This document shows positions 1 to 58,240 of a DNA stretch of 64,000 nt, piece by piece. The DNA lies in assembly GCA_015179125.1 (NCBI GenBank), contig WHVA01000380.1:1-64000 (forward strand), given 5' to 3'. The notes beneath the pieces are model-generated. The model was given only the letters and a program-made list of their open reading frames with translations, was not told where the DNA came from and did not search any database. The number at the start of each line of letters is the position of its first letter. Position 1 is the stretch's first letter. Origin of the DNA: Gautieria morchelliformis. Lineage: Eukaryota; Basidiomycota; Agaricomycetes; Gomphales; Gomphaceae. The position numbers and the translations under genes are program-made.

Positions 1-2469
1 CACCCAACATGTACGACGTGTCCTTGAAATCCTCCGGGCCAACAACCTGTACCTCAAACCTGAAAAATGCCTATTTGAGCAACTAGAGGTGGAGTATCTC
101 GGCCTCATCCTCTCTCAAGGACAGGTTGCCATGGACCCAGTCAAGGTTGCAGGGGTGCGGGACTGGCCAACACCACGTAACGTCACTGAAGTCAAATAAT
201 TCCTTGGTTTCATCAACTTCTACCGTAGATTTGTGGAAGACTTCTCACACATTGCAAAGCCCCTCAACCAGTTGACAAAACAGGATGCCCAATGGTCTTG
301 GGATCCAAATGGCCCAGAGCAAGCGTCCTTTGACAAGCTCAAACTCCTCATCACCTCAACACCGATCCTTGTCCTCCCTGATCAAGGCAAACATTTCCGT
401 CTTGAAACAGATGCCTCAGCCTATGCCACAGGAGCAGTACTGTCCCAGCTATGTGATGATGGCAAATGGCGGCCTGTGGGGTTTGTCTCCAAAAGCCTCA
501 ATGATGCTGAACGCAACTATGCCATCCATGACAAGGAGCTTCTTTCTGTGATTCGGGGATTAGAGGAATGGCGCCACATCTTAGAGGGAACGAAGCACAA
601 GATTGAGATTCTCAATGACCATCAGAATCTCACCTACTTCCGCACTGCACAAAACCTGAACCGTCGTCAAGCACGCTGGTCACTCTACCTCTCTCGCTTT
701 GATTTTGAGCTGATCCATCGTCCTGGTCGTCATTCAGCCAAGCCTGATGCACTCTCACGACACGTGGATCATAAGCGGGGGGAGGAAGACAACCAAAATC
801 AAGTCTTACTTACCCCTGACTTGTTCCACATCAAGGCGAATCCCCCAGAGGCTGGTGCGCAGTTAGTCCCAGGTGAAGGTGATGCTTTCCTCAATCGAGT
901 AAGGAACTGTGTAGACCGGGATGAAAAGGTTGTCAAGGCTCTCAATGAACTGGGCTCCTCTGGCAATTTACGAGGAGAAGAGTGGTCTGAACAGGATGGG
1001 CTTGTCCTCTATCACAACAAAGTGTATGTGCCGCTTGATGCAAAACTACGACATGACATAGTGAAAGCGCACCATGACATGCCTCTCACCGGTCACCCTG
1101 GTCGTTGGAGAACCACTGAACTAGTTGCTCGGAGTTACTGGTGGCCTGGGATGGGACGTTACATTGCAAATACGTGAAGGCCTGTGACCTGTGCAACCGG
1201 ACAAAAACCTTCCCTGCTTCTCCCATTGGCAAGCTTCTACCAAACCGTATCCCAGACCGTAGATGGCAGGTTATGTCTGTTGACTTGATTGTAGAACTGC
1301 CTACCAGTCATGGCTATGATGCTCTCCTTGTTGTTGTCGATCGCCTCTCAAAGCGTGCACATGTCATTCCCACCACTTCAGATGTAACTTCAGTGGGAGT
1401 TGCCCGACTCTTCCGTGATCATGTTTGGAAACTTCATGGGCTCCCTGAAGAAATCATCAGTGATCGAGGCACACAGTTCATCTCCCAGTTCATGCGTGAA
1501 CTGAACAAACTTCTTGGTGTCAAAGTCGCCGCCTCTACTGCTTATCACCCCCAAACTGATGGACAGACTGAAAGGGTTAATCAGGAGATTGAGCAATACC
1601 TTTGACTATTCATCAACCAGCGTCAGGATGATTGGTTCGAATGGATATCCTTGGCCGAGTTTGCCTATAACAACCGAATCCATGCCTCAACCCAGACTAC
1701 ACCCTTCATGTTGGACAGTGGCCAACATCCAAGGCTGGGACTGGAACCAGTCCGAGAAACTCGACTCGAGGCCCTGGATGAGTTCACAACGCGGATGGAA
1801 GCGGCCACGAGAGAAGCTCGTTCAGCCCTGTCCAAGGCAGCAGAGGACATGGCACGCTTCTATGACGTGCACCATAAAGCAGCCCCAGTTTATAAGCTTG
1901 GTGACAAGGTCTGGCTCAATGCACAAAACATCACAACCACTCGCCCAATGAAGAAGCTAGACCACAAGTGGCTAGGTCCCTACACGGTTAATAAGGTGGT
2001 CTCACGAAATGCCTATGGTCTAAATCTTCCTGCATCCTTTGGTCGCACACATCCAGTGTTCTCTGTCGTCCTGCTTCGGCCATATGAAGATGACCCAATT
2101 CTTGAACGTCATGCCCCTCCACCACCCCCCCCTGTCATACGGGATGGAGCCGAAGAATATGAAGTTGAAAGGATTCTAGACAGCAGGATGTTCCGTGGAA
2201 GGTTGGAGTATCTCGTGCGCTGGAAGGGCTATGGAGCTGCCGACGATCTCTGGCTACCAGCAAAAGATGTCTCTGGGGCAAAGCGACTCATTAAGGAATT
2301 TCACCGGCAAAACCCAGAGGCACCTCAGCGTATCTCAGCAGCCACATACATGTCCCTCCCTTTCCAGAGATTTCAGAACTTCACAGAACCTTCCAGGCAA
2401 ACTCTCTTCGACTGGACAGCAGGCAGGGCTTCTACTCATAATGTCAAGGGTCCAGGACCCCACAGATAA
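1..2469 (+). pseudogene. Ty3/gypsy chromovirus pol (3' part), decayed
   Basis: Pol polyprotein of a chromodomain Ty3/gypsy retrotransposon, entering from the left edge. Order seen: end of reverse transcriptase (FLGFINFYRRF), RNase H (about 360-760; ETDASAYATGAVLSQ), zinc-binding and integrase core (about 1000-1610; SVDLIVELP, DRGTQFIS, YHPQTDGQTERVNQ), integrase C-terminal domain, and a chromodomain (about 2150-2330; EYLVRWKGY). Three breaks are visible: stop TAA at 197-199 where a Q-type codon is expected, a frameshift near 1160-1180, and stop TGA at 1603-1605 where the family has R. Reading resumes in the same frame after each stop. Both stops fit single C-to-T changes. Family assignment is firm; the element cannot be active as it stands. 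Confidence 0.95.
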
Positions 2470-23690: not shown

Positions 23691-26600
23691 TTAATCAGGC
23701 TTCAGCAACACTTCTTTGTATACAATATTAGAAGTTTTGTTCCCCTCCCCTAAAAGAATATGGACTCTGTTCCAATTAGTGCCTCTTGATACTGCAACAT
23801 ACAACTGTCCATGTGAAAATACCATGTATCGCAAGTCTATGCCTACCATGCCAAGAGACTGCCCTTGAGACTTGTTGATAGTCATGGCAAAGGCCAGCCT
23901 GACAGGAAACTGGCGATGCTGGAGCTCAAATGGCAATTGGTCTGAGGTGGGTGTCACTGTAATCCTAGGGATAAATGCAGTCTCTCATGCAAATGGTCCT
24001 GAAATGATCCTCACAAAGAGTACCCTGTTGGTCATATTGATGAGACGCAACCTTGTACCATTGCAGAGTCCATGACCAAGGTCAATATTCCGAAGAAGCA
24101 TGAGTACCACTCCAGGTTTAAGCCTGAGTTGAGATGGAGGAAGCCCACCCATGTTGAGTGAGTTGAGATACTCCACAGGATACACGTTGCCATCTTATTT
24201 CCTTTGACTGAGTCTGCACTGGGATAGAGACACTCATCCCCAGGGAATACATTGAGCACCTCAGCATTAATCTCATCCATTTCCATATTGCAAGGGCAAA
24301 GGATGGCACGTTCCAAAAAGTATTTGTCTTGGAGTGCCTCCCCAGTACCAATGTTAGGATAGATAGCTGTAATGAGATCTGAGACCTGTGGTCCACATAT
24401 CACGTGCTGAGGAAGTGTCAATGAATTGTCCAAAGGGAGATCCTTTCCCTGACCAACATCAGAGAGCCACTGAGCAAATTGTTCACTCTGGGGATCATGA
24501 GGGTCGACTCGTATATTTTGAGTAAGATGGAGGACCTTGACATGATGCCACAAAGGAGATCTTTGGATAGAAGCACCCACAATCTCCTCCTTGTTACCTC
24601 AAGGAACGACAGGCAGAGTTTGCTGGAAATCTCCACCCCAAGCCACAGTAATACCACCAAATGGACGATCTGGAGGCTCTAGGACATCCCTGCAGGTTCT
24701 GTCGACAGCTTCAACTACATGATGATGCTGCATAGGCACCTCATCCCATATGATCAAATGGACCTGCTTAAGAAGTTCTGCCAATGGTGAGCCTCTTTTG
24801 ATGTCACATAGAGAACCCTCATGAATCAGAATTGGAATCTTGAGCATAGCATGTGAGGTTCTGCCCCCAATCAGAAGCAATGCTGCAATTCCTGAAGATG
24901 CAATGCATAGGACAATAAGACCCCTTCCTCTGATAGAATGAGCCAGGGTGTTCCAGGTAAAAGTTTTGCCTGTACCACCAGGGCCATTGACAAAGAACAG
25001 AAGACCCTCTCCATTTATGGCTGAATGGAGGATCTCATCATGGACATGCCTCTGTTCCGCATTAAGCTTGTCAATATTGGTGGCGGCTTTTTCCAGCTCT
25101 GTAGCTGGGTCATAGTCCCGCTGCTCAGCTATCCAACGGTTCCCTACCAATCCCTCCCAGTGCCCCATTATCTGTGGCATATCTGGGAACTCATCCAGAG
25201 ACTTCCCCCCCTGACGTATGATCTTGTCAATGAGAAAGAGACCAATGTCATAGATTTGATCATTGGTAGGATGGTGAATGCCATGCCTATTTTGAAGCTG
25301 ATACTCCAGGTCATCACAAATACGCTCCCGAAACTCCTCCCAGATTTGAGCAGGCTGAGCAGGGTTACACCTAAGGAGAATAGTGACAAATAACCTCCTG
25401 AGCTGGAAACCTGTTTGTATATGTGCAGCCTCCTGAAGACACTGTGTCCACTCCAAATCATCTTCTAACAGGCCCTTCGCCAGGCATGCAGCCTTGTAAG
25501 TAGGACAAAGGACACCATCAAATGATCTAAGCTCCTCAAATGACGTTGCTCCTCTGACCACTGTAAGGAGGGTTCGCAAGTAAAAGCGCTCTCCAGAGGC
25601 TGGACTCGCAAAATGAAGGCGACCGAGACTGAAACCCCGCTGGCGAGGTTGCCACCGCTTGGCTTGCTTTTTCCAGACATAGTGCTCAGGAAATTCCACA
25701 TAGAGTAGTTCACGTGCCTGAGGATATCTGTCATTGGTTTCAAAATAGCCCATGAGCATGGTCTTAGCATCCCCTGCCCTCTGCAAAGCCATGCCTGGAT
25801 CCATATGAGGATCAAATATCACATTGTGTTGGCCTGGCAAATGGACTGGAAGTGCCATAACAGCAGGGACCTGAACATGCATTTTATATTCCAGCAGTCT
25901 CCAAGCACCTTCATGTGAGCTGACATAGCGTGCATCGAGGTACTGTTTAACCTCATCCCTCTCCTTATTAATGGTCATTGTGGTCCTGTCAGGCCCCTTG
26001 TACATATACTTGTGAATGTACTTGATAGAGCGCACATTGAAAGTGGGTTCCACATTAATATGGCATTCAAATTCCAAGAGGAGGGTGGGACAATAGGGAA
26101 CCACATCGTGGTTGTTCATGATGTTGCCTCTGACATTATGCTGTCTGCCATCATGAGGACGGCGATACTGTGGATAGCCATCTTCAGTGACAGATGTCAC
26201 CTCACAAAATTCCTTTGGGAAATGTTTAGAACACTTGCCCTCTGTCATGCAAGGAGCCTGAGGATGCGCTTGTCCACAGGGGCCATGAGTCATTAGATCA
26301 CAAACTAATTTGTAGAGCCTTGGATGCTCTTGCTGATCAGGAAAGACAGCCCAAACCAAAGAGTCCACAGCCTCCGGTGTCCTGATCTTATCCTCCTCTT
26401 TAAACCATATAAGAAGGTGCATATGAGGGAGCCCCCGCTTCTGGAATTCAATCACATGGACACGTGCCACTGTGCGACCAAGGATACCATCCTTCATGAT
26501 ACGTTTGATCAATTGCTCCTTCTTGAGATGAAAAACCCTTGCAACCAAGTCAGGACGATCACTGGGAGTCTGGCCTGGCTTGAGAGCATCTTTGATTTCC

Positions 26601-28538
26601 TTCCACTGGGGGTTTGCTGTCATTGTCACAAAGACATCTGCTGGACCATGCTTCCTAGTGATTGCCATTGAATTTTGAAAATTCTCGTTCATATCCCTGG
26701 CGCTCCCAGTAAATGTAGCAGGCAAAATGACCTTTTGTCCCAAGTTAGCTGGATTGGCCTGATTGTCCTCAGGTCCAAATGTATCAATCATCTGATTGTA
26801 GACCTCAGCCCGCAGCTCATGTTGATGGTATTTGATCCAATTTAGCTTCTGCTGTTCAGTCGCTGCCCAAGCATCCACAATGTATTGCTGAAAGAGCTTG
26901 CCAGCCAGGAAGAGAGTTTCAGCTTCCCCCTCTCTTGGAAAAAGACGATAACAATAGTATTTTGACATGGTCACATGCCTGTCACTTGAAGGGTCCTCCT
27001 CCTCCTCCTCCTCCTGGCCTTGTCGTGGAAGAGCTTGGTCTATCCGTGGAATGTCCCAATCCCAGCCTGATTCACCTCTGGGAAAGAGAAGGACATAGTG
27101 TAGTGGCGCATACAAAGCATGTTCAGCCTGAAATTCTTCGCAGTTCTCCACCTCTAAGCTGAATGACAATGTCTCTAGTGCCTCCAGGCACACCTTCTCC
27201 AGGGAGCACAATGGCAATCTCATCCGCTGTAGGAATATTATATCTCCTCTGGGCTGTATGTGCTCTGTAGGTGAGTCTGGCCTCCACATTCAACCTATCC
27301 GGCTGGTTCCTAAGCCTTTCCATCGCCTGCTGATAGATTGGAACCAATGGATTGTGAGCCTGCATCATTTCCTGGAGGTCACTTAAAACATCTGAATCCA
27401 AAGGATCAAAACTGTTATTGGCCTTCCTACGTTGCAAGGCCTCTGCTGGATCATAAAAGTAGAGCTGCGCATAGCTGGGTGCCCTATCCTGACCCTCAGC
27501 AGGAAGAAGAGCACCATGAATATGATAGAGGCCTCCCTGAATTTTGAAGACATATGGCCCAGGTCTACTCATGACCTTGTCATCTATGTTCACTCCCACA
27601 GAGACGAATGCCAGTGTAGCATTATAGTTCCGAATATTTTCCCTAAACTGTTTTCCACGCCTGTCTTGGCTGGACAAAAGAGTCTTTAGTGGTTCTGGAG
27701 GTTCCATCAACAATTCAAGGTGTATCTGGCCCTTTGAGGAACATATACCAAATTTGGGCTCAGCAATGGTAGAGTCGGACAGACGCTCTGCCTTCCAATG
27801 CCATGCTTTACATTTTGGACATTTGTCATCCATAGCACCAAGGTCATGAGGTGCAATCTGTTATTCAATGAAAGGGTGACGTGCTAGTGGAAGGTTTCTT
27901 AAAGGCATTGGTGGAGGCGGTGGAAGTGGAGGGGGCTGAGGAGGAGCTGGTGGATGCAGAGGGTGTGGAGGCACAGGGGGCACAGGGGCAACAGGAGGCA
28001 CAGGTTGTTGTGGAGCAGGCTGATGAGGCAGTGGAAGTGGAGGGGCCCGAGGATGAGCAGGTGGATGTGGAGGCTGTGGAAGCACAGGTCGTTGTGGTGC
28101 AGGCTGCTGCTGGAGTGGCATTTGATCTGGGAGAGGTTCAGGGTTTGGATTCAATGCCTGTGCACGTCGTCGTGGCCGTCCTCGTTGTGGCAGAGGCATA
28201 GGATTGATATTAGCAGCCTGGGCCCGCAACAGAGCTACAGCTGCAGAGCCTATAGGGACAGGAGGAGGAGGTGCTGCCTGGGCCTGTCTTTGATGCACAG
28301 GTGCAAGAGGCATATCAGCTAACTGTTCCTGTATGGCACGTACAGCATCCTGAGGACTTAGATCAGGTGGAATGGCATTTGAAGGTCCAGCCACAGGAGG
28401 CCAAGGAATTGCATTGTCCTGAGGGAGTAGAGGTTGAGGAAATGGCTGAGGAGGTGGACGGTCAGGATTTCGAAGATGTTCTTGAGCTGCAGCGAGAACC
28501 CTATCCCGACGACGCACAGAAGGGGACGTCATTGGCAA
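23691..28538 (-). pseudogene. Helitron RepHel (Rep endonuclease plus PIF1-type helicase)
   Basis: Rolling-circle replication initiator and helicase of a Helitron. N-terminal Pro-rich region (28538-27861), Zn-finger-like CPKCKAWHW (about 27815), helitron-like N-domain, Rep domain with the HUH motif in GLPHMHLLIWF (about 26430), then a PIF1 helicase with Walker A GPGGTGKTF (about 24975), Walker B region LIIWDEVPMQH (about 24740) and the C-terminal [11 protein letters not shown]...YVAVSR (about 23870-23780). Breaks: TAA at 27861, a frame change near 27130, TGA at 24599, a frameshift near 24190, TGA near 23988. The longest intact frame is 896 codons (27289 to 24599). Confidence 0.93.
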
Positions 28539-34615: not shown

Positions 34616-35755
34616 TTATACGGTAAAGGCCAAATCAGGTCGCGTGCTGAGTGCTGCATACATTAGCGATCCGATTGCTTTAGCATAGGGTACTTCGGCA
34701 GTTGGACCTGTTGAGTCCATAGGTGTTGTGAGTTTGATCATTTTGTGTAGAGGTGTAGATACGGAATGTGCCATAGCCATGTTGAATCGATCGAGTATGA
34801 TGTCGATGTAATGTCCTTGAGACATAATCAGTGTTCCCTTATCCCTATTCCTCTCAACCCTAATTCCCAAGATTTTCTTCATTTCTCCTAAATCTGTTAA
34901 AGGGAATTTTCCATGAAGCTCCCCCTTGAGCTTAACCATCCCTCTTTTGGAATCAGCAAATAGTCCGAGGTCATCCACGTATACTGATATGACTTCGATT
35001 GAGTCCTTATCTTGCCTGATGTAGACACATTCATTGGCTGTGCTTTGATGGAATCCGAGATCGAGTAGTAATTTGCATAAGCGCTGATGCCAAGCTCGTC
35101 CCGATTGCTTGAGTCCATAGAGCGCTCTGTATATTCTTAGAACACGTCCAGATCCATTATCAAAACCGTCGGGCTGACGCATGTAGATCTCCTCATCTAT
35201 GGTTGAATTGAGATAGGCGCCTTTGACATCCATCATTTCGATTTCCCAATCAAGTGTGTTTGCGATGGCTAATAGAACACATAGTGAATCGAATTTGACC
35301 ACAGGTGAAGTTATTTCGTAGTAATCCATCCCTGGCCTCTGTGTGAATCCTTGAGCTACAACCCTTGCTTTAGCCTTATCGAATTGTCCATCCGGTTGTG
35401 TTTTGACAGCATATACCCATCGGCAACCGATAGCTACTCGTCCGGGTGGTAGTTCTGTTAATTCCCATGTTCCTAACGTCTTGTGTTGATCCATTTCAAT
35501 TTCCATCGCTTTCTCCCAGATCAGCACATCATCACATGATACCGCCGCTCTGTAATTCTCAGGTTCAGTGACGATTTCTTTCGTTATGTAAACCTGCTCG
35601 GTGCGTCCTGAATCATTCAGTTTCCGGTAATCCGGTCTTTGAGTGATACGCGTGCTCCGTCGAATCTGTGGAGCTGGCGCTTGTTCAGGTGGATCAGGAA
35701 CAGGCGTCGTCTGGGGTGATGACATCTGCGGGGTAGATGGGATCGGGTCTGGCAC
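34616..35755 (-). CDS. Copia reverse transcriptase (open stretch, 379 codons)
   Basis: Longest intact piece of the element. It opens with a Pro/Thr-rich linker and then shows WEKAMEIEMDQHKTLGTWEL, GCRWVYAVK, MDVKGAYLNSTIDEEIYMRQ, ALYGLKQSGRAWHQRL and the catalytic YVDD (VISVYVDDLGLFADS). It ends at a TAA (34616-34618) inside a conserved stretch, where RPDLAFTV should continue to HLSQF; CAA-to-TAA fits. An ATG exists at 35755, but in life this is part of one polyprotein. Confidence 0.9.
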   Translation of the reverse strand: MPDPIPSTPQMSSPQTTPVPDPPEQAPAPQIRRSTRITQRPDYRKLNDSGRTEQVYITKEIVTEPENYRAAVSCDDVLIWEKAMEIEMDQHKTLGTWELTELPPGRVAIGCRWVYAVKTQPDGQFDKAKARVVAQGFTQRPGMDYYEITSPVVKFDSLCVLLAIANTLDWEIEMMDVKGAYLNSTIDEEIYMRQPDGFDNGSGRVLRIYRALYGLKQSGRAWHQRLCKLLLDLGFHQSTANECVYIRQDKDSIEVISVYVDDLGLFADSKRGMVKLKGELHGKFPLTDLGEMKKILGIRVERNRDKGTLIMSQGHYIDIILDRFNMAMAHSVSTPLHKMIKLTTPMDSTGPTAEVPYAKAIGSLMYAALSTRPDLAFTV

Positions 35756-36313
35756 ATGCTCGCGCAGTGAGTGCTCCCCCTTGAGCGGTGCCGTAGTACT
35801 GTCGTCATCGTCGTTATCCAGGATAGGATAGAGTTTATTGTCACTTTCGTCGAATGTGATATTTCTTGAGATTTGAACGTGCTTTGAGGCTTTATTTTAA
35901 TACCTCCAGGCTTTGGCATGTTCAGCTACTCCGACGAATATGTGTTCTTCTGGTTTTGGATCAAGTTTAGCTCGACGCTGATCCGGCACCATAACCCAGC
36001 AGTTTGTCCCGAATTCCTCTAGACGTGCTATGTTCAACTTCTTGCCGAATAGTGCCCGGAACGGTGTTGCATCATCTCCAAGCGCTCGCGTGGGTGATCA
36101 ATTTTTGATATAACACGCGTAAGCCACGGCCTCAGGCCAGAGTATTTTTGGCAGGTTCTTGACGAATATTATCACCCGTGCGTGCTCGAGTAAGGTCCGG
36201 TTGAGTCGTTCAGTGATTCCATTCTGGGCTGGGGAGTATGGAGCTGTGGTCTCCATGATGATGCTATTTTGCACAAAATTCCTTGAAATTTTTATTGACA
36301 TATTCCCCTCCAT
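35755..36313 (-). pseudogene. Copia integrase C-terminal part
   Basis: Reads APYSPAQNGITERLNRTLLE and LPKILWPEAVAYACYIKN, then TGA near 36098, PTRALGDDATPFRALFGKKL, VMVPDQRRAKLDPKPEEHIF, then TAA near 35898, followed by a polar linker into RT. Confidence 0.85.
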
Positions 36314-56515: not shown

Positions 56516-56715
56516 GGACACTACAATGTCAGCTTTTGTTTGGTTTCTAAAGGATTTATATTTTCTAAGCACAAGACTCGCGCAGCCGAGAGTGGGACGA
56601 ATCCAAAGAAAAACAGCGATGAAAGATGGTTAACACTTCCGATTTTACTGAGCCGCAACAGACCATTGAAAGAATGGTTAAGGCAAAAGCAGTAAAAAAG
56701 AAAAGCGAATAAGAA

Positions 56716-56955
56716 TCCCCTGACGACACAAGCCGGTACTGCAATAGCAAGGTCATCATGTCCCTCAACGTGCAAGCAGAGGTCGAGGGACGAGGGCGGC
56801 AAAAATTGGCTAACCAATGATGACCGCGGTGCGGTCATTTTAGTGGTTAAACTAAAAAGAACAGATACTACACTTGATCTAAGCCTGTACGACGGTTAGC
56901 TCTGACTTCTTCGCTTAACTTGTTACGGGTACTCACCAAAAGGCCAGAGTGGTAA
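56716..56955 (-). ncRNA. U2: U2 spliceosomal snRNA gene, split by an intron
   Basis: Minus strand. Exon 1 (about 56955-56937) ends GGCCTTTTG; exon 2 starts GCTTAGATCAAGTGTAGTAT (56884), the near-invariant U2 region that contains the branch-site pairing element GTAGTA (56871-56866), followed by CTGTTCTTTTTAG. Next come stem IIa (TTTTAGTTTAACCACTAAAA), stem IIb (ATGACCGCACCGCGGTCAT), an Sm site AATTTTTG (56807-56800), a stem III-like hairpin (GTCCCTC...GAGGGAC) and the stem IV loop TATTGCAGTACC (about 56745-56734). Removing 56885-56936 gives the usual U2 stem I (GGCCUUUUGGCUUAGAUC). Mature length would be about 188 nt, normal for fungi. A TATA-like TATATAGG lies about 30 bp upstream (56988-56981). 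The 5' and 3' ends are estimates. Confidence 0.93.
56885..56936 (-). other. Spliceosomal-type intron (52 nt) in U2 snRNA
   Basis: Starts GTGAGTACCC, has GCTAAC as branch-site candidate about 13 nt from the end, and ends CGTACAG. It sits inside the loop/stem of U2 stem I, between GGCCTTTTG and GCTTAGATC. Length, splice sites and branch site are those of an ordinary mRNA intron of these fungi. Confidence 0.9.
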
Positions 56956-57009
56956 GGAAAATTTGAACGGGGTCGAGGGCCCTATATACTACAATTAGGC
57001 GCCAAGGGA

Positions 57010-58240
57010 CGTGCGCACAGGCCACCAATTGAATTCCCTATATGGTAGCCTGTGCCTTTTTCCGCTATTCAAAGCAGCAGGTTGCCGAACATGCCGTAAC
57101 AAAAACAGGGTTTCGGCTGGTATCATCGAAGTATGCTACCCAGGCACTAGGTTCGGCGCAAGCCTTGAAGCTCCGACTTCATCTCCAGAGGAGTGCTGCG
57201 TCGGCCACAACACCTCTCGCGTCAAGGTTTCTTTAGATTATCGTAACAGAGATGTATTCTGACAACTTGTCCTGTGTGAGTAGCTAAGAATCATTTTAAT
57301 TATGTCGTGATGTATGTGCCTTCTGGGACGAGTGACAAATGGCTTGTGAGGCACGTAGTTGAAGCAGTCACTCAAAAATAATTTTAAAAAAATTATCACA
57401 ATGACCTGTAGTATGTTTTAAAGTGATCTCATAAATTACTTTGCTGCTCGGTGACCGGTGGGCGCAGCACCGGGCACTTTTCCAGACGACGGTGTCGACA
57501 GTTCGTTACGTCACGTGACTTTAAGCACGCTCGCGTTTTAAATGGACATCAACGTATGCTGGGGAGATATCCTGCTGTTATCATGCAAAGATGTTCTAGA
57601 GGACAGGCTTGGGATCATATTCTCTCTCATCAGTCATCTGGGAGTCTCCTATTATTGTTTCTCTTCTCTCCTTCTTGCCCGAAGGTTTGAAACCGCGCCT
57701 GTCAATGACTCAATTTATTCGTACCACTACTATCATAGCGATCGAGCTGTCCCATTTGCTGCTAAAATTATTTAGGATATCTGGCCTACATTCCCAACTA
57801 TAGATGTCCTTAAAAATCAGCGAACGGCCGTCTGTAACGCGTTGACAAGTGAGCTAGCACAATTGTGCCCACCCCCACTATTCCCAATGGGATATAAGAC
57901 AGTTACTTGGTGATTAAGCATTTCTAACTAGCTAGGGAGCTCAAGAGACATATGGTCTAGTAGATTGTTATAATCAGTGAAAGAGTGTGTGGCTGGTGGT
58001 AGAGACGGCGGGAGACGGCCCCCTAGCGCGGCATCTTGGTACAAGCCCCTTCTCCGGAAGGTGCTCGCGGAGCGTGAACTTTGAGTCGGAGATGGGGCTT
58101 GTGCCGAACCTACCCAGGCACATTCACTCCAACTCTCAGACGTGACCATGCAACGACAACGAACTCATGGCCCAACCAGATACAATGCTCCATAGCGATA
58201 CCAATCATTGAATATCTGTATACGGTATGCCACATAGATC
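57010..58240. other. No recognised gene
   Basis: Several overlapping frames of 60-95 codons on both strands, none with a family resemblance I can name. No tRNA or other RNA gene seen. Confidence 0.5.

Follow-up and report, generated by a model that had tools for sequence, protein, structure and literature searches.

An mRNA-type intron in a U2 snRNA gene has a precedent, at a site other than the one described here. Such an intron was reportedly found in Rhodotorula hasegawae by Takahashi et al. in 1993, at a position said to lie just downstream of the branch-recognition region, and the U1 and U5 genes of this species contain introns as well. Canzler et al. are further said to have described, in 2016, introns in the U6 snRNA genes of fungi. 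The U3 snoRNA genes of fungi carry a GT-AG intron near the 5' end, with intron-containing and intron-free copies in one genome, and according to the same source no small structured RNAs other than U3 and U6 are as yet known to be frequently interrupted by an intron (PMC5832005).

The gene described here resembles fungal U3 in that both are genes of small structured RNAs interrupted close to the 5' end, and the mixture of copies recurs here in U4; unlike U3, U2 belongs to the spliceosome. With the R. hasegawae gene it shares a short major-spliceosome intron inside the U2 of a basidiomycete, and it differs in the site, which lies in stem I before helix Ib, and in belonging to a multicopy family with diverged introns. 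Among the literature matches listed, there was no U2 intron at this site or in an agaricomycete and no U4 intron; absence from print is not claimed. We hold with high confidence that the gene is a working member of a multicopy U2 family in which every copy found with a 5' end is split at one site by a short major-spliceosome intron.

The U2 gene in the window

The Rfam model search of the window, i.e., the whole stretch of 64,000 nucleotides analysed, matched the U2 family RF00004 on the minus strand at 56715-56899 (100 bits, E 6e-19). The gathering score of the family is 46, which places the window copy in U2, as the preliminary description had it. The alignment is good from GATCAAG to the 3' end of the copy, and the 5' stem of the model is forced onto the 3' end of the intron with low posterior. 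Such a poor fit at the 5' stem is expected if the real 5' end lies beyond an insert. The following features were located:

57013-57024, minus strand: upstream element TGGCCTGTGCGC, consensus TGGYCYGTGCRC; position read, common to the U2 and U4 copies
56982-56988, minus strand: TATA box TATATAG; its start lies 36 nt ahead of the exon-1 core
56937-56955, minus strand: exon 1 TTACCACTCTGGCCTTTTG, with the U2/U6 helix II strand and the 5' arm and loop of stem I
56937-56952, minus strand: exon-1 core CCACTCTGGCCTTTTG, by direct reading
56885-56936, minus strand: mRNA-type GT-AG intron of 52 nt, by direct reading and comparison of copies
56931-56936, minus strand: donor GTGAGT, the 5' end of the intron
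56895-56900, minus strand: branch-site box GCTAAC, with the putative branch A at 56896 and 11 intron nucleotides after it
56885-56889, minus strand: acceptor TACAG, the 3' end of the intron
56715-56884, minus strand: exon 2, from the GCU of helix Ib through the branch-recognition GTAGTA to the 3' stem-loops, its 3' end taken from the Rfam match
56800-56807, minus strand: Sm site AATTTTTG, by model match and reading
34616-35896, minus strand: Copia-type reverse transcriptase (Pfam RVT_2), transposable element
24599-27289, minus strand: Helitron helicase gene, transposable element
200-2469, plus strand: Gypsy-type polyprotein-like open frames, identified by eye

Read directly on the minus strand, the exon 1 side, ...TTTCCTTACCACTCTGGCCTTTTG, is followed by the intron, GTGAGTACCCGTAACAAGTTAAGCGAAGAAGTCAGAGCTAACCGTCGTACAG, and by the exon 2 side, GCTTAGATCAAGTGTAGTATC, the intron being flanked by ...CUCUGGCCUUUUG upstream and GCUUAGAUCAAG downstream. 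The intron lies exactly where the preliminary description had put it, and the gene bounds proposed there (56716-56955) are about right, with the TATA box and the upstream element just outside. Given the putative transcription start at TTACC, exon 1 would be about 19 nt long. The branch-recognition sequence and the conserved GATCAAGTGTAGTATCTGTTCT block are both present, as are the Sm site and the 3' stem-loops (RF00004 match and reading).

Deletion of 56885-56936 yields ...CUCUGGCCUUUUGGCUUAGAUCAAGUGUAG, which is the standard U2 5' region. The joined region is predicted to fold into a stem with a UUUU loop, while in the unspliced pre-U2 the two strands are 52 nt apart and the 5' part is predicted to fold differently. 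The placement of the intron in stem I, and the restoration of this stem upon its removal, both asserted from the outset, agree with the reading, with the fold of the joined region and with the family comparison below. The predicted spliced junction would be CUCUGGCCUUUUG-GCUUAGAUC, with the 5' end of the RNA expected near TTACCACTC.

We have also considered that no splicing occurs and that U2 starts within the present intron, the upstream GGCCTTTTG being a relic; the model of Rfam does place its first positions on the end of the intron. However, the stretch aligned in this way has a low posterior and is variable from copy to copy, whereas 17 of 20 copies have kept exon 1. Moreover, exon 1 pairs with U6, and 14 of the 17 have a TATA box that starts 35-38 nt upstream of the exon-1 core. 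We regard such a start as scarcely credible. On the reading of a split gene, the true 5' ends of such genes can escape standard snRNA models, and the U2 model of Rfam is an instance.

The description of the host as agaricomycete-type is supported, not proven. In a search with an exon of L057, an actin-family gene from this genome (the query runs into an intron at its start), unnamed environmental proteins and some animal proteins came out on top. Among the best 120 of 7994 matches, other fungi and many animals have near-equal scores; the placement is soft. Agaricomycetes make up 17 of the 20 named fungal entries among these 120, including Pholiota, Pleurotus, Mycena, Melanogaster and Vararia, which we take to belong to this class. 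The matches of the Helitron protein mix fungal and plant names and do not help to place the host.

A U2 family and its introns

The genome is a 122 Mb draft in 1113 contigs, in which the Rfam model search yields at least 20 U2 matches. An independent pattern search with a 29-nt exon-2 block, allowing up to 3 mismatches, finds the same places, again at least 20. In 17 of the 20 an intron of 44-56 nt, entering at the identical nucleotide, separates the exon-1 motif from G(C/G)TTAGATC. The exon-1 core in these 17 copies reads CCACTCTGGCC(T/G)TTTG and is the same in all except L023, which has a single base change. The recurrence of the intron, for which the preliminary description had suggested looking, thus goes far beyond chance, the split nucleotide being identical at 17 of the 20 genomic 3' exons and the intron sequences being different; the exact 9-nt match of exon 1 to the genome's own U6 (see below) points the same way. 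That the intron is common to a multicopy U2 family, and that one is present in U4 genes of this genome too, goes beyond what had been noted from the window.

As for the other copies, in L020 a GT-AG stretch comes after an exon 1 of altered sequence, GGCCTCCCTG, and L021 and L022 are 5'-truncated, lacking exon 1 and beginning inside the intron with unrelated sequence upstream. The latter two are 99.5% alike in the upstream flank and form one of several near-identical pairs, together with L009/L010 (upstream flank 100% over 388 nt), L013/L014 and L026/L027. These pairs are possibly alleles, so that the 20 copies do not amount to 20 independent loci.

A complete set of features, i.e., the TGGYCYGTGCRC element, TATA box, exon 1, intron, exon 2 and intact Sm site, is found at 13 of the 20 loci (L009-L019, L023 and L025). 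At these 13 the element lies 139-147 nt before GATCAAG, exact except for one mismatch in L011, and the TATA box is situated between the element and exon 1. The element is absent at that place in the other seven (L020, L021, L022, L024, L026, L027 and L028), most of which look damaged. L026 and L027 are without a TATA box and without 11 nt near the 3' end, the Sm site of L027 also being changed, and L024 retains exon 1, intron and Sm site, with neither element nor TATA.

An uninterrupted U2 gene elsewhere in the genome with all the expression, together with a lack of spliced reads from this locus, was named in the preliminary description as the finding that would speak against it. At the DNA level, none of the 20 U2 3' exons found in the draft assembly belongs to an uninterrupted gene, and the genome contains nothing that matches the joined 30-nt junction with up to 3 mismatches, though the pattern search finds all 20 of the 3' exons. 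A search for relatives among viral contigs gave no match. Five matches on four loci (L041-L044) occur in contigs filed under bacterial bins and are taken to be eukaryotic contaminants. The uninterrupted junction, reading CTCGGCCTTTTGGCTAAGATCAAG, is present in full in L041 and L044, and L042 agrees with it as far as the contig reaches; one of the matches on L043 starts at a contig edge, and the other has unrelated sequence upstream.

Single linkage at 65% sorts the 17 introns into four groups. The pairwise identities given here are means in which close copies are always included. The intron body, i.e., the intron less its first 6 and its last 16 nt, has an identity of 0.46, close to the 0.47 of the 130 nt upstream together with the exon-1 core. 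The value is 0.91 for the 180 nt that begin with exon 2, 0.98 for the acceptor, 0.76 for the donor hexamer and 0.86 for the branch box, the last being biased upward by the choice of the best match to CTRAC as the box. All 17 introns have a GTRNGY donor and a CAG acceptor, and 16 have a CTRAC box near the acceptor, that of L028 being degenerate (TTGAC). Since the body has drifted like the flanks and the signals are kept, the intron predates the spread of the copies, and thus the expansion of the U2 family, and has retained mainly what splicing needs. The common site, the diverged introns and the kept signals together indicate an old, maintained feature of the gene family and not one damaged copy, and we infer that the U2 introns are spliced.

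U12-type introns are marked by an ATATCC or GTATCC donor and a TTCCTTRAC branch site. These signals are absent from the U2 introns, and a U12-type assignment was rejected.

In length and signals, the U2 introns resemble the introns of protein genes of the same genome, as judged from a small sample, namely the one actin-family gene L057, which has five introns of 52-67 nt with boundaries set by eye. One of these begins GTACGCGC, as do several U2 introns. The gene also contains, again by eye, an internal exon TCGCAG of only 6 nt between introns of 59 and 57 nt, so that about 19 nt for a first U2 exon is nothing unusual in this genome.

The split copies might instead be pseudogenes with an insert, the work being done by a hidden uninterrupted U2 gene. 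Such a gene could sit in a gap of the draft assembly with its 1113 contigs, four copies (L020, L021, L022 and L028) look clearly decayed by sequence comparison, and the U4 family does have an uninterrupted copy beside split ones. On the other hand, no uninterrupted junction was found, and 17 of 20 copies are split at one site, with diverged introns, kept signals and kept exons; in addition, 13 copies keep promoter and Sm site, and exon 1 matches the genome's own U6. Kept exons, splice signals, promoter, Sm site and match to U6 are not expected of a dead family, and we consider the pseudogene explanation very unlikely.

Pairing with U6 and the intron position

The functional reading of the split copies draws on the pairing of exon 1 with U6. 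The 3' part of both U6 genes found in the genome holds CCAGAGUGG, the exact complement of CCACUCUGG in U2 exon 1. Against this intronless U6 (CCAGAGTGG), exon 1 forms an exact 9-bp duplex with a predicted energy of -17.1 kcal/mol. When the letters of exon 1 were shuffled 2000 times, 4 of the shuffled versions paired equally well or better, the best at -20.8 kcal/mol, and the foreign U2 5' ends of L041 and L044 give -9.4 and -6.0 kcal/mol, respectively, with the same U6. The predicted duplex is U2/U6 helix II in a lineage-specific wording. The helix I pairing (GCU/AGC and AUC/GAU) between U2 and the own U6 is also present by eye, and exon 2 opens with the GCU of helix Ib.

In Saccharomyces cerevisiae numbering, the intron lies between G20 and G21, directly before the GCU that pairs with the AGC catalytic triad of U6. 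U2-C22 has been located in helix Ib (PMC4081067). With the site before helix Ib, the helix II strand and the 5' arm of stem I are parted from the helix I and branch-recognition strands.

Split U4 genes and the making of U2

U6 and U5 were each found in two copies (U6: L029 and L030), all four uninterrupted and matching their models over the full length. The likeness to the fungal U6 introns lies in a spliceosomal intron within a spliceosomal RNA gene, with U6 itself uninterrupted here, whereas U6 of R. hasegawae is split. The present genome is like R. hasegawae in having introns in further spliceosomal RNAs of one species and unlike it in which RNAs these are: here U5 is uninterrupted in the two copies found, U1 was not found and U4 is split.

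U1 was not found in the genome by its Rfam model, either at default settings or at E up to 10; its absence is not implied, and the sensitivity of the search is evidently unequal among the snRNAs. Rfam searches of the genome for U12 RNA and U3, which were run without a positive control and do not imply absence, were likewise negative. Relative to the Rfam model, U6 has an additional 9-nt insert near the 3' end. L030 (U6) and L031 (U5) have, by eye, a common upstream stretch, AAACGACAGGCTCRACCAAA.

All 11 U4 matches, 9 above and 2 below the family cut-off, were inspected. The best-scoring one, L045 (C737:159479-160330), is uninterrupted, reads CATCTCTTGTGCTCGGGCATG and has both the upstream element and a TATA box. 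Three others have CATCTCTTGTG, followed by 54, 59 and 60 nt (L047, L048 and L049, respectively) and then by CTCGGGCATG:

C1026:66692-67523: split U4 locus L047
C829:13810-14642: split U4 locus L048
C1:367619-368451: split U4 locus L049

The intron of these three begins with GTTCGT, a weaker donor than those of U2, contains ACTGAC and ends in CACAG, and its removal gives exact agreement with the junction of L045. L048 and L049 have element and TATA, and L047 the element only. The element and exon 1 are separated by 64 nt in L045 and by 58-65 nt in L047-L049, and this similar spacing puts the extra stretch inside the gene and not in the promoter. In L046 one G is missing at the donor, and in L055 the stretch is present with a damaged exon 2; L050, L051, L052, L053 and L054 are without the exact exon-1 motif CTCTTGTG. 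In 7 of the 11 U4 loci TGGTCCGTGCAC occurs exactly, which is the same upstream element as in U2. By duplex prediction, the U4 junction falls within the U6-pairing strand of U4/U6 stem II.

These positions bear on the origin of the introns. The preliminary description took the U2 intron to have arrived by reverse splicing or by capture out of a spliced RNA, which goes further than the sequence supports. Reverse splicing has been proposed earlier for the snRNA introns of fungi, and in the present case an excised intron may have been reverse-spliced into U2 in or near the active site, with subsequent reverse transcription and recombination. This origin would be compatible with a working family of split U2 genes, and the site, immediately ahead of the U2 residues paired with the catalytic triad of U6, speaks for it. 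However, no donor intron has been identified, and given the age of the insertion its traces are probably gone (intron body identity of 0.46). The U4 intron, moreover, interrupts the stem II strand of U4/U6, which lies outside the active site of the catalytic spliceosome. We therefore mention reverse splicing as a tentative suggestion, rather doubtful at present.

For the split genes as working copies, the following course can be envisaged. The pre-U2 would be transcribed from an snRNA-type promoter, and its intron would be removed by pre-existing spliceosomes containing earlier-made U2. The joined RNA alone would bring the strands of stem I, helix II and helix I into adjacency, as the spliceosome requires. 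If U2 is spliced by spliceosomes that hold U2, its production would feed on itself by way of cytoplasmically inherited U2. A low level of U2 would then lead to less U2 splicing in a self-reinforcing loop, against which, we speculate, the many copies and strong splice signals may be a guard.

U2 is needed for branch-site recognition in every major-class intron, and this requirement, together with the finding of split genes only, would make the splicing machine dependent on itself. We lean towards the further view that the biogenesis of U2 in this fungal lineage is obligately circular, with no uninterrupted gene and with cytoplasmic inheritance, that U4 has been colonised too, in its U6-pairing strand, and that snRNA genes have repeatedly been entered by their own substrates beside the U6-pairing strands. 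The occurrence of split and uninterrupted U4 in one genome provides a built-in control for studying how snRNA genes gain or lose introns, and the U2 copies with their diverged introns are natural replicates that can tell which intron positions matter. The family as a whole would be a clean case for how essential machines bear circular dependencies.
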